Positions 28,408 to 37,313 of a stretch of 38,289 nucleotides of DNA are shown in pieces (the stretch's first letter is position 1; each line of letters opens with the position of its first letter). The DNA lies in assembly GCA_017882505.1 (NCBI GenBank), contig JADGPJ010000018.1, forward strand, positions 1 to 38,289. Direction: 5' to 3'. The stretch is from Solirubrobacterales bacterium. GTDB taxonomy: Bacteria; Actinomycetota; Thermoleophilia; Solirubrobacterales; 70-9. The position numbers and the translations under genes were made by a program. The notes under the pieces are model-generated. The model had not been told where the DNA came from, made no database searches, and saw only the letters and a program-made list of their open reading frames with translations.

Positions 28408-29484
28408 TCAGAGGCATTCCCGCAGGTCCGACGCGGCGCGCTCCGGCGGGTAGATGTTGATGTCGACGCCGGTGCCGAGCTCGAAGCCGGCCTTGGTCGT
28501 CAGCCGCGGCGCGATGTCGACGTGCCAGTGGAACGGCTCGGCGCCGCGGGGAGCGGTGCGGACCCAGAGGTTCAGCTCCGGCCGACCGTCGAAGCGGGCG
28601 GCCAGCACCCGCATCGCGGTGCGGATCATCGCCGCGCCGCCCCCGTCCTCGGAGAAGCTGCCGTTCTGCTGACGTGGGACGACCCGCAGCTCGAACGGCG
28701 AGCGCGAGGCCCAGGGGCAGATCAGCGCCGCCTCGTCGTCGATCGCGACGAGGCGCTCGCGGCGGCGAACCTCCTCGACGAGGACGTCGCTGAGAAGGCC
28801 GCCGCCGGCAGTGCGTTCGCCGTAGGCCCCCGCCCGCTCGCGCTCGCGGGCGACCGCCGCCGGCACGAAGGGAAGCGCGTAGAGCTGGGCGTGGCTGTGC
28901 TCGAGCGAAGCCCCGGCACCGCCGCCCTCGTTGACGATCACCTGCACGTAGGAGGCCTCGGGATGGGCTCGCATCCGCTCGCGCCAGGTGGCGACGGCGG
29001 CGGCGAACTGCTCCTCGTCGAGCTCCGCCATCGCCGTCACGTGCTGCGGCGAGTTGATCAGCACCTCGTGCGCGCCGGTGGCCTGACGCGAGGAGAAGAG
29101 GTCCGGTTCGCCGGCCCGCCGCGAGGCCAGCAGCGGGTCGCCGCTGCTGGCGAAGGCGCCCGCTTCGGCCCCAGTTCCATCGCGCGGTTCCTTTTGCACG
29201 TCATTGGTGTCTAAGGAACCACGCGGTGGGGATCCCAGCGCCGGAAAGAGGTTCGGCACGACCCGGGTCTCCCAGCCGGGGCTGTCGGCCGGGCCGCCGC
29301 CGGGACGCAGCGCGTAGAGCTCGGGCGGGGTCCGGTCCTCGCGTCCCTCGCAGAAGGGACAGTTCTCGGGACCCTTCGGCTCGCTGGTCGGCGCCGAGAA
29401 GTTGTCCGGACGGTCGGCCCGACCCGGGGCGAGGATCGTCCTCAGCCCGCTCAGCTGATCGATTCGTATCTCGGGGGCGCTCAG
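28408..29484 (-). CDS. galT: Galactose-1-phosphate uridylyltransferase-like protein, probable CTG start
   Basis: GalT exchanges UMP between UDP-glucose and galactose 1-phosphate (Leloir pathway). The N-terminal part [22 protein letters not shown] and the zinc pair CPFC are in frame upstream of the first conventional start (GTG 29259), back to CTG at 29482-29484. I place the start there: 358 residues, overlapping the SPFH stop as CTGA. Further motifs are [18 protein letters not shown], and the catalytic-type SLEHSHAQL with a second FHWHVDIAP. Between VPNLFPAL and the next conserved segment, about 17 residues come from a palindromic element. Whether it is galactose-specific is not settled; relatives act on other sugar phosphates. 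Confidence 0.82.
29178..29229. repeat. 52-bp palindromic element inside galT
   Basis: The arms CGCGCGGTTCCTT and AAGGAACCACGCG are inverted with one mismatch; a smaller CAC/GTG pair lies inside. It matches the element at 36380-36431 at 42 of 52 positions, with the arms nearly identical and the centre diverged. The galT frame runs through it without a stop, coding approximately [15 protein letters not shown]. Confidence 0.85.
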
Positions 29485-34873: not shown

Positions 34874-36382
34874 TCATCGTTTGGCGGCGTCGTCCAGCAG
34901 CGCCGCGAGCAGGCCGTCGATGTCGTGGCGGCCGGCCTCGACGTCGACCTCGAGGCCGGCGGCGCGGGCGGCGTCGCTCGTCACCGGGCCGATCGAGACG
35001 ACGCGGGCGCCCTTGGGGAAACGGTCGCCCAGGGCCTCGGTCAGGTTGGTCACGGTCGATGAGGAGGTGAAGGTGACGTAGTCGGCGTCCTGCGCCGCCT
35101 CGATCGCCTCGGCGCCGGGCTCCTCGCGGACCGTCTCGTAGAGGGCGAGGACGTCGACCTCGGCGCCGCGCTCACGCAGCGCCTCGGGGAGTACCTCGCG
35201 GGCCTCGGCGGCGCGGGCGACGAGGACGCGCCGGCCCTCGACCTCGACCGTGGCCAGGGCTTCGACCAGGGCCTCGGCGACGAAGTGCTCGGGGACGACA
35301 TCGGCGGCGATCCCGTACTCGGCGAGGGCGCGGGCGGTTCCCGGACCGATCGCGGCGACGGTGGCGCCGGCGAGGGAGCGGGCGTCGGCGCCGGCTTCGG
35401 CCAGCGCCTCGAAGAGCAGGCGGACGCCGTTGGGGCTGGTCAGGCAGAGGAGCGAGTACTCGCCGATCGAGGCCGCGGCCGCGCGCACCTCGGGTGAGCC
35501 GACTCGGGACTCGATCCGGATCGCCGGCAGCTCGACGACCTCGGCGCCGAGGTCGCGCAGCGCCGCCGCGAAGCCGCTGGCCTGGGCGCGGGCCCTGGTG
35601 ACGATCACCCGTAGCCCGTGCAGGGGGCGCCGCTCAAGCCAGGCGAGTTGATGGCGGCGCGCCGCGACCGGGCCGACGACGATCAACGCCGGGGCGCCGA
35701 CCTGCTCCCGCTCGACCGCCGCGGCGATTGTTCCCAGGGTCGCCTCGACCGTGCGCTGGCCGACCATGGTGCCGCGTTCGACCGCGGCGGCCGGCTGCTC
35801 GGGGTCGCGCCCGCCCTCGATCAGCGCCGTCGCGTTCTCGGCCAGCCGTTTGACCCCCATGTAGAAGACGAGGGTGCCGGGGAAGGCGGCGAGCGCATCC
35901 CAGTCGAGCGCGGTCTCGGTCTTGGTCGGGTCCTCGTGGCCGGTGACGAAGGCGACGGCGGAGGCGTCGTCGCGGTGGGTGACGGGGATGCCGGCGTAGG
36001 CGGTGGCGGCGACGCCGGCGGTCACCCCCGGCACGACCTCGAACTCGACTCCCGCCGCCCGCAGCGCTTCGCCCTCCTCGCCGCCGCGGCCGAAGACGAA
36101 CGGGTCGCCGCCCTTCAGCCGGACGACGCTGCGCCCGGCCAGGGCGGCCTCGACCAACCGCTTGCCGATCTCCTCCTGCGGCACCGACGGTATGCCGGGA
36201 TGCTTGCCGACGTAGACCAGCTCCGCGCCCTGCCGCGCTCCCGACAGCGCCCCCGGCGGAATCAGGCGGTCGTAGAAGACCACGTCGGCGCTCGCGATCA
36301 GCGCCAGCGACCGCGCCGTCATCAACCCGGGATCCCCCGGCCCCGCCCCGACCAGGTAAACGACCCCACCCCGAATCGTCAT
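34874..36382 (-). CDS. cobA-hemD: Fused uroporphyrinogen-III methyltransferase / uroporphyrinogen-III synthase
   Basis: The protein has 502 residues. Residues 1 to about 245 are the SAM-dependent methyltransferase (SUMT): VYLVGAGPGDPGLMTARSL, VRLKGGDPFVFGRGGEE, and VVPGVTAGVAATAYAGIPVTHR. Residues about 250-502 are the HemD synthase: VIVTRARAQASGFAAALRDLGAEVVELPAI and YVTFTSSSTVTNLTEAL. HemD closes hydroxymethylbilane to uroporphyrinogen III; CobA methylates it to precorrin-2 for sirohaem and cobalamin. The fusion is common in Actinomycetota. The ATG, and an AAGGAA ribosome-binding site 8 bases before it, lie at the edge of the 52-bp element. Confidence 0.95.
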   Translation of the reverse strand: MTIRGGVVYLVGAGPGDPGLMTARSLALIASADVVFYDRLIPPGALSGARQGAELVYVGKHPGIPSVPQEEIGKRLVEAALAGRSVVRLKGGDPFVFGRGGEEGEALRAAGVEFEVVPGVTAGVAATAYAGIPVTHRDDASAVAFVTGHEDPTKTETALDWDALAAFPGTLVFYMGVKRLAENATALIEGGRDPEQPAAAVERGTMVGQRTVEATLGTIAAAVEREQVGAPALIVVGPVAARRHQLAWLERRPLHGLRVIVTRARAQASGFAAALRDLGAEVVELPAIRIESRVGSPEVRAAAASIGEYSLLCLTSPNGVRLLFEALAEAGADARSLAGATVAAIGPGTARALAEYGIAADVVPEHFVAEALVEALATVEVEGRRVLVARAAEAREVLPEALRERGAEVDVLALYETVREEPGAEAIEAAQDADYVTFTSSSTVTNLTEALGDRFPKGARVVSIGPVTSDAARAAGLEVDVEAGRHDIDGLLAALLDDAAKR

Positions 36383-36431
36383 CGCGCGGTTCCTTTTCCA
36401 CGAAATGCGTAACTAAGGAACCGCGCGACGG
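36380..36431. repeat. 52-bp palindromic element between hemC and cobA-hemD
   Basis: The arms CGCGCGGTTCCTT and AAGGAACCGCGCG are a perfect 13-bp inverted repeat. GTCAT flanks the 48-bp core (36383-36430) on both sides, at 36378-36382 and 36431-36435. The left GTCAT contains the cobA start codon, the right one the hemC stop codon. It matches the copy in galT at 42 of 52 positions. Confidence 0.9.
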
Positions 36432-37313
36432 TCATGCCGGACCTCCGAGCGCCTCGGCGCTGGCGAGGATCTCGCGGGCGCCGGCGCTGAGCAGGCGCTT
36501 GGCGAGGAGGACGCCGGCGGCGGCGGCATCGGCGGCATCGGCCTCGACGCGGTCGCGCAGCCACTCGCTTCCGTCCGGGAGGCCGACGAAGGCCTCGATC
36601 CTCAGGCGCTCGCCATCGACCCGCGCGTGGACGCCGATCGGGCTGGCGCAGGTCGCTTCCAGCAGCGCCACCGCCGCTCGCTCGGCGGTCAGCTCGCGCA
36701 GCGCCCTGGCGTCCCCGCACCTCGCCGCGACGCCTGCCGTCGTGACGTCGCCGGCGCGGACCTGCAGCGCCAGCGCGCCCTGGCCGGCGGCGGGGACCAT
36801 CTGCTCGGCCGGGATCGCGAAGCCGATCTCGCCGGCGCGGCCGAGCCGGCGCAGGCCGGCGGCGGCGAGGACGATCGCGTCGAGGTGTCCCTGCTCGAGC
36901 TTGCGCAGGCGGGTGTCGACGTTGCCGTGCAGCTCCTCGACCCGAAGGTCCGGGCGCGCCGCCAGCAGCTGCGCGCGGCGGCGCAGGCTCGCGGTCCCGA
37001 CCCGGGCTTCCTCGGGAACGTCGTCGAGGGAGGCGCCGACTCCGATCCAGACGTCGGCCGGATCCTCGCGCGCGGGAACCGCGACGATCTCAAGCCCCGC
37101 CGGCATCTCCCCCGGAAGGTCCTTCGCCGAGTGGACGCCGAGCTCGGCCTCCTCCGCCAGCAGCGCCCGCTCGACGCCGCGGACGAAGCGCGACTTGTCG
37201 CCAGGCTCGCCGCCGGAGGACGCCTCGACGAGCTCCGCGCCGCCGAGGAGGTCCGCGACCCATTTGGCCTGGGTCAACGCCAGAGTGCTGCCGCGGGTGG
37301 CGATCCGAATCAT
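36432..37313 (-). CDS. hemC: Porphobilinogen deaminase (hydroxymethylbilane synthase)
   Basis: HemC polymerises four porphobilinogens into hydroxymethylbilane. The 293-residue product has IATRGSTLALTQA, HSAKDLP with catalytic Asp65, GTASLRRRAQLLAARPDL, HGNVDTRL, and Cys222 in ATCASPIGVHA, which anchors the dipyrromethane cofactor. The length is slightly short, mainly in the C-terminal domain. ATG 37313 matches the family start. It lies between hemA and cobA-hemD, with inverted repeats on both sides. A hairpin arm ends seven bases before the start codon and could affect its translation. Confidence 0.96.
   Translation of the reverse strand: MIRIATRGSTLALTQAKWVADLLGGAELVEASSGGEPGDKSRFVRGVERALLAEEAELGVHSAKDLPGEMPAGLEIVAVPAREDPADVWIGVGASLDDVPEEARVGTASLRRRAQLLAARPDLRVEELHGNVDTRLRKLEQGHLDAIVLAAAGLRRLGRAGEIGFAIPAEQMVPAAGQGALALQVRAGDVTTAGVAARCGDARALRELTAERAAVALLEATCASPIGVHARVDGERLRIEAFVGLPDGSEWLRDRVEADAADAAAAGVLLAKRLLSAGAREILASAEALGGPA

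Follow-up and report, generated by a model that had tools for sequence, protein, structure and literature searches.

Results

A palindromic repeat separates hemC from cobA-hemD

The window analysed here is the whole stretch of 38,289 nucleotides at positions 1 to 38,289 of contig JADGPJ010000018.1 (GenBank assembly GCA_017882505.1, Solirubrobacterales bacterium), and the subject of this study is a small palindromic repeat that lies in it between hemC and a cobA-hemD fusion gene. Throughout the text, G000 is the genome under study, numbers from G001 onward are its relatives, and L-numbers are individual loci or copies. Both genes were named by NCBIfam models and are read on the minus strand (Table 1); the HemD part of the fusion reached 126.5 bits with the uroporphyrinogen-III synthase model NF004593, under the cut-off of 275 for that model. 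The sequence coordinates confirm what a previous sequence-only reading had described at this junction, namely a palindrome flanked by GTCAT on both sides. The perfect 14-bp inverted repeat encloses a loop of 19 nt, and the two GTCAT copies are separated by 48 bp. The TGA stop of hemC (36434-36432) and the ATG start of cobA-hemD (36382-36380) are 49 nt apart, and the motif AAGGA is located 8 nt upstream of the ATG on the coding strand. No terminator-like site was found within 36200-36600, and none of 4227 Rfam models gave a match at E<=1 in the region 36000-36800.

Table 1. Positions of the repeat copies, their parts and the adjacent genes in the window
Feature	Position	Strand	Basis
Palindromic repeat copy (model R1 positions 1-61)	36375..36435	-	covariance model, 68.5 bits (-) and 66.9 bits (+)
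14-bp inverted repeat, left arm	36382..36395	.	sequence
14-bp inverted repeat, right arm	36415..36428	.	sequence
GTCAT direct repeat 1 (ATGAC on the coding strand; contains cobA ATG)	36378..36382	.	sequence
GTCAT direct repeat 2 (contains hemC TGA)	36431..36435	.	sequence
AAGGA from the element, base-paired in the predicted fold; putative ribosome-binding site	36391..36395	-	sequence and folds; function putative
hemC, hydroxymethylbilane synthase	36432..37313	-	TIGR00212, 259 bits (cut-off 164)
cobA-hemD fusion, uroporphyrinogen-III methyltransferase/synthase	34874..36382	-	TIGR01469, 292.8 bits (cut-off 185)
Second window copy, in frame inside a galT-like gene (gene on minus strand, stop at 28408)	29173..29233	+	70.8 bits

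Relatives carry the bare overlap at the same junction

The junction was read in 30 loci, one from G000 and 29 from relatives, and eight relatives of the same genus were readable; the loci of G001 and G004 end within hemC, and that of G011 was not included. Four of these eight have no insert and a 4-base overlap of the two genes, which is ATGA in G002 and GTGA in G003, G006 and G009. Outside the genus an RTGA overlap is found in G021, G026 and G029, while the remaining loci are arranged otherwise and relatives with other spacers were not counted as empty sites. The covariance model of the repeat described below (R1) had no match in any of the seven overlap loci. The codons behind the cobA start align between filled and empty sites (MTIR in G000, MSIR in G006), so that stop and start look native. 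In a hemC-cobA tree with many weak branches, the overlap is spread over separate clades (G002 with G009; G003 and G006 inside another group), which points to the overlap as the older state. Thus, the empty sites that the sequence-only reading had proposed to look for do exist, and its claim of an insertion at an ancestral hemC/cobA overlap agrees with the variable presence of the palindrome and with the empty RTGA sites.

At least two unrelated palindromes have inserted at this junction, given that two families are seen there. G010 carries a 41-nt copy of its own version of the repeat, which shares 34/41 positions with either of two further copies in that genome and reaches only 16 bits by R1; its hemC is open through this copy and terminates again in an ATGA overlap. 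The tree pairs G000 with G010 at weak support (86/93), and the two may share one insertion. A different palindrome with GGGCCGAAAA/TTTTCGGCCC arms occupies the junctions of G005:C24 (L039) and G007:C318 (L043). The GGGCCGAAAA-arm palindrome is a family of its own: exact matches to its pattern number 29-91 in six genomes of the genus and one in G010, with none in G000, G001, G002, G004 and G009. The G008 junction has a spacer that is 20 nt longer and shows no evident palindrome. Longer hemC-cobA spacers were also noticed in G019 (L036) and G031 (L041), which belong to another genus of the family.

The repeat is a family probably restricted to the genus

A 91-bp query run against G000 itself returned 52 matches at E<=10, many of which are copies of the repeat. 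The model R1 was built from 24 aligned copies (alignment A1), all from G000, of which the hemC-cobA copy is one row; its E-values are rough. R1 places the repeat at 28 positions in G000, each recognized on both strands and at full length. This number is a lower bound, with 150 of 540 first-look candidates scored, and the copy count suggested by the sequence-only reading therefore shows that the palindrome recurs at 28 places at least. The element is approximately 55-61 bp long and forms a near-perfect hairpin with a core of a fixed length of 41 bp, in which CGYGGTTCCTT and AAGGAACCRCG enclose a variable part, CACG-N5-CGTG in most aligned copies. Outward of the core, conservation is weaker (CRTCS on the left, SGRTGG on the right). 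Four copy pairs in G000 have a start-to-start spacing of 70-71 bp, and the L019 pair is common to G000 and G001.

The search of relatives with R1 covered 38 of 100 and, at E<=0.01, yielded matches in 11/11 relatives of the same genus and in 0/27 relatives from other genera of the family. Arm versions differ by species, with CGCGG or CGTGG in G000 and CGCTG in G009 and G010. No description of such a family in Solirubrobacter or Thermoleophilia was found among the top-ranked titles of the literature searched. A pattern scan also matches scattered unrelated genomes, and seven places in Ruminococcaceae bacterium YRB3002 (L168, L180, L189-L193) match GGTTCCTT..AAGGAACC, perhaps an unrelated hairpin family. 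Two further repeats were noticed next to copies: one of approximately 80-110 bp with many G001 matches, seen in the right flank of L022, at L103, L104 and other G001 places, and another one, CTCCCCGCAGTTCG and neighbours, flanking three G001 copies (L099, L113, L117).

Copies lie where the adjacent genes remain whole

Placement classes were derived from a home-made gene finder. In G000, 11 of the 28 copies are located between co-directional genes, nine between convergent genes, seven in coding sequence and one between divergent genes; the corresponding numbers for the 35 copies in G001 are 15, 10, three and two, the other five being at contig edges. Some convergent gaps are filled tightly, leaving 4 and 5 nt at L026, 4 and 7 nt at L097 and 8 and 8 nt at L112. 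The element end CGATG is the predicted start codon in single G000 copies, namely the hemC-cobA copy, L013 and L021. A portable ribosome-binding site with start codon was rejected as a general trait, because 10/63 copies compare with 20% of random positions in this respect.

Four relatives were searched with the flanks of 18 G000 sites: nine of these sites aligned with a relative that is empty, the L019 pair aligned with G001, and the other eight were not taken into the alignment. Four sites beyond these 18 were aligned with G001, which carries the element. Across the insertion point, 14 G000 sites could hence be aligned with at least one relative, and the element is missing from at least one relative at nine of them, with no R1 match in the empty loci; the remaining five were compared with G001 only, where the element is also present. 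For G001, 18 sites were prepared, seven queried and six aligned.

The conversion of overlapping into separated genes proposed for hemC-cobA recurs at other overlaps, at a minority of copies. L012 lies between a polyprenyl synthetase gene and a preceding gene labelled xseB-like by its sequence alone. G002 and G010 show a 4-nt overlap (TTGA) of this gene pair, and in G001 the overlap extends to 17 nt; in G000 the element separates TGA from GTG, and in G009 a variant palindrome separates TGA from ATG. The junction behind a gene that we take to be hemL-like, judging from its C-terminus, has the element in G001 and a TTGA overlap in G010. At L013 (ABC transporter genes), where G000 has its element, the corresponding locus of G009 (L133) contains an insert that by eye resembles a palindrome, GTTCCTTT...AAAAGGAAC, and that R1 does not match.

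Copies also lie in frame within genes, including one in the gene for an MMPL protein and the second copy of the window. The latter lies within a galT-like gene (Pfam GalP_UDP_transf, 54.1 bits), the reading frame of which is open through the element. R1 matches 2/13 galT loci (G000 and G002) and 0/11 of the others; the encoded loop has 31-32 residues with the element and 21-28 residues in nine loci lacking it, G001 and G010 offering no usable loop. By eye, the galT loop of G026 (L218), which is about as long as that of G000, is encoded by another palindrome-like stretch. Near the 3' ends of the genes for glycine cleavage P protein (L017) and hydantoinase A (L021), the copies are read through, and that at L021 terminates in an ATGA overlap with the following gene.

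Flanking direct repeats have no fixed place

According to the sequence-only reading, the repeat had been inserted with a 5-bp target-site duplication, and the same duplications were to be sought at other copies. Direct repeats of at least 5 nt in the 20-nt flanks were present at 10/28 G000 copies compared with 8.06 in shuffled pairings, a value reached by 124/500 shuffles. In G001, there was a mild excess (16/35 versus 9.13; 5/500 shuffles). The spans between these repeats scatter from 41 to 70 bp, no offset pair stands out, and no position common to the copies was found. A fixed-place target-site duplication was thus rejected as a family trait by the shuffled-flank test, and the proposed duplication is not supported as a property of the element. 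The usual end of the element itself is CGRTG, and at 14/28 G000 and 21/35 G001 copies one or both sides of the core have RTG at a distance of exactly 2 nt. The ATGAC repeat at hemC-cobA is explicable by this usual end RTG together with the TGA needed as hemC stop, and the 5-bp repeat is in part forced, TGA and ATG being required by the two genes as stop and start codon.

The predicted hairpin includes the cobA start

On the coding strand, the RNA fold predicted for the junction is 4.44 standard deviations lower than that of 200 shuffles, none of which is as low (0/200). The predicted stem of 16 bp begins 1 nt past the hemC TGA and has the cobA ATG as its last three bases, the whole of AAGGAACCGCGCGATG being paired with the 5' arm. 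To mimic cover by a terminating ribosome, the fold was repeated without the bases between the end of hemC and the midpoint of the 5' arm. The predicted energy, -34.3 kcal/mol with these bases included, then weakened to -15.9 kcal/mol and was not better than that of shuffles, while AAGGA was still paired in a leftover short stem. As modelled, this result fits a hairpin-gated coupling of the two genes in part only.

Discussion

The repeat at hemC-cobA is very probably a copy of a genus-restricted, non-autonomous and presumably selfish palindromic repeat that settles where neighbouring genes stay intact, and the overlap of hemC and cobA is then the ancestral arrangement. That the element moves is inferred from its dispersed copies and from its variable presence among relatives. 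We hypothesize that it is moved in trans by some enzyme and persists at sites at which the adjacent genes remain whole. Such sites are stop/start overlaps, in-frame positions inside genes, and gaps between genes that converge or run in the same direction. An insertion into the 4-base overlap of hemC and cobA would have moved their stop and start codons apart, so that TGA and ATG now stand at opposite ends of the insertion.

Several observations weigh against this interpretation. No mobilising enzyme was found, Y1_Tnp (RAYT, PF01797) being the one candidate tested; it had 0 matches in G000, which is 93% complete, and in 10 relatives of the genus. As far as PF01797 shows, with a control that was positive in 5/14 known genomes, mobilisation by RAYT is not supported. 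No clean target-site duplication emerged from the 28 G000 and 35 G001 copies taken together. Given that the closest readable relatives share approximately 76-81% of HemC residues, the borders of the insertion cannot be read to the base, and at L015, L016 and L018 the empty and filled loci differ by more than a simple insertion. The hemL-like site of G000 has neither element nor overlap, which leaves the polarity there open, and galT loops of 31 and 32 residues also occur without the element in G004 and G026. Of 63 copies, 10 have a start that looks coding no farther than 20 nt from the core, compared with 20% of 4000 random positions, a loose control that also counts internal starts of real open reading frames. 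R1, with its rough E-values, was built on G000 copies alone and matches weakly in G003 (best E 8.8e-4) and G004 (0.0037). Finally, compensatory changes within the family do not rise above those of shuffled columns, so selection on the hairpin is unsupported.

The insertion of a 48-bp core by a miniature inverted-repeat transposable element (MITE) that duplicated ATGAC, as the sequence-only reading had it, would explain why ATGAC stands on both sides at hemC-cobA with both native codons intact, and the mild excess of direct repeats in G001 is in its favour. We nevertheless consider this improbable, as G000 shows no such excess, no common offset exists and the repeat overlaps the usual end of the element. 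Less likely still is an immobile hairpin maintained by selection at gene ends, which would act as a stabiliser of mRNA 3' ends, like the repetitive extragenic palindromes (REPs), or as a bidirectional terminator. The strong hairpin predicted at hemC-cobA, the tightly filled convergent gaps and a REP-like placement, with 20/28 G000 copies between co-directional or convergent genes and one between divergent genes, are what such a function would lead one to expect. However, the hemC-cobA copy has no terminator-like site near it, 7/28 copies lie in predicted coding sequence, including galT, and some relative lacks the element at 9/14 aligned sites.

A regulatory device for the branch point of haem and sirohaem synthesis, which selection would have favoured in several species at the hemC-cobA junction, appears highly improbable to us. 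A palindrome does occupy this junction in 4/9 readable genomes of the genus, including G000 and involving two unrelated families, and another split overlap concerns the hemL-like gene. In contrast, the same repeats occur at many unrelated genes, the bare overlap persists in 4/9 genus genomes, and the insertions in G000 and G010 may go back to a single event.

Compared with repeats described previously, the family is filed as a new one of a known kind: it does not match the named kinds examined in tags, enzyme or duplication, yet works like them. MIRUs are oriented repeats of 77-101 bp and not palindromic. According to PMC12548453, the MIRUs of mycobacteria seem to be mobile and enter start codons at a -4 spacing, with little effect on the gene. 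The likeness consists in small repeats at RTGA stop/start junctions, where in our case three junctions that overlap in relatives represent a minority of copies, and in copies that are read through and then terminate in an ATGA overlap (hemC of G010; L021 of G000). The family studied here is set apart from MIRUs, by description only, as a near-perfect palindrome of 55-61 bp; at hemC-cobA, at L012 and at the hemL-like site of G001, the genes beside it are spaced apart and do not overlap. Rickettsia palindromic elements (RPEs), according to PMC2229807, are palindromic repeats of 105-146 bp in frame in conserved protein genes. The in-frame copies in galT and the MMPL protein gene, among others, are alike in this respect, whereas our family is shorter and belongs to another phylum; this comparison was likewise made by description.

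PMC3733652 describes REPs of the GTAG and CGTC super-families as short palindromes that often form dimers, mostly 20-100 bp apart, and that lie mainly between convergent and co-directional genes and sometimes inside genes. On this basis, the placement of our copies and the four G000 pairs resemble REPs. However, GTAG occurs within 8 nt of the core in 0/28 G000 and 0/35 G001 copies, CGTC in 4/28 and 6/35, with the variants TGTC and CCTC also in the minority; the long stem has a variable inner loop of 5 nt, and a Y1 transposase as expected for the GTAG type had no match in 11 genomes of the genus. With MITEs, the family shares shortness, terminal inverted repeats, variable presence and the lack of room for a gene, but not a target-site duplication at a fixed place. 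No parent transposon was present among the matches of the 91-bp query; a systematic search for long elements with these ends was not part of this analysis. The suggestion that the palindrome represents a new kind of operon-editing element cannot be upheld, since MIRUs inserting at such junctions and REPs beside or inside genes are already described in PMC12548453 and PMC3733652.

The sequence-only reading had also assumed that the coupling of the two genes is lost. This appears doubtful, because AAGGA and the cobA ATG sit in a predicted hairpin that a ribosome terminating at hemC would disturb. The AAGGA in the 3' arm of the element may now serve cobA. As both AAGGA and ATG are paired in the predicted fold and the 5' arm starts 1 nt past the hemC stop, cobA would be expected to depend on hemC ribosomes: it might be translated mainly when the terminating ribosome opens the stem, so that coupling would be altered in type rather than lost. 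The RNA-unfolding model outlined in PMC12548453 covers spaced gene pairs such as rpmI-rplT at +52 nt, which compares with +49 nt at hemC-cobA. In one screen mentioned there, structure right after the upstream stop correlated with weaker coupling, which supports the view that coupling is lost. The idea that the palindrome is a portable coupling switch, which would put hairpin-gated coupling in place of termination-reinitiation at an RTGA overlap, is accordingly worded here as a tentative and rather unlikely one. If true, the settling of at least two unrelated palindrome families at one overlap would make the splitting of overlaps a recurrent mode of operon evolution that keeps gene structure.

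For the genus, hemC-cobA provides a before-and-after case in which genes that overlapped are set apart by a small repeat. A single junction within one genus offers empty sites, copies that are read through and insertions of unrelated palindromes, and the case shows a stop/start overlap opened in one step with neither gene broken. Furthermore, these natural pairs of filled and empty sites allow the contribution of the overlap to expression to be measured.

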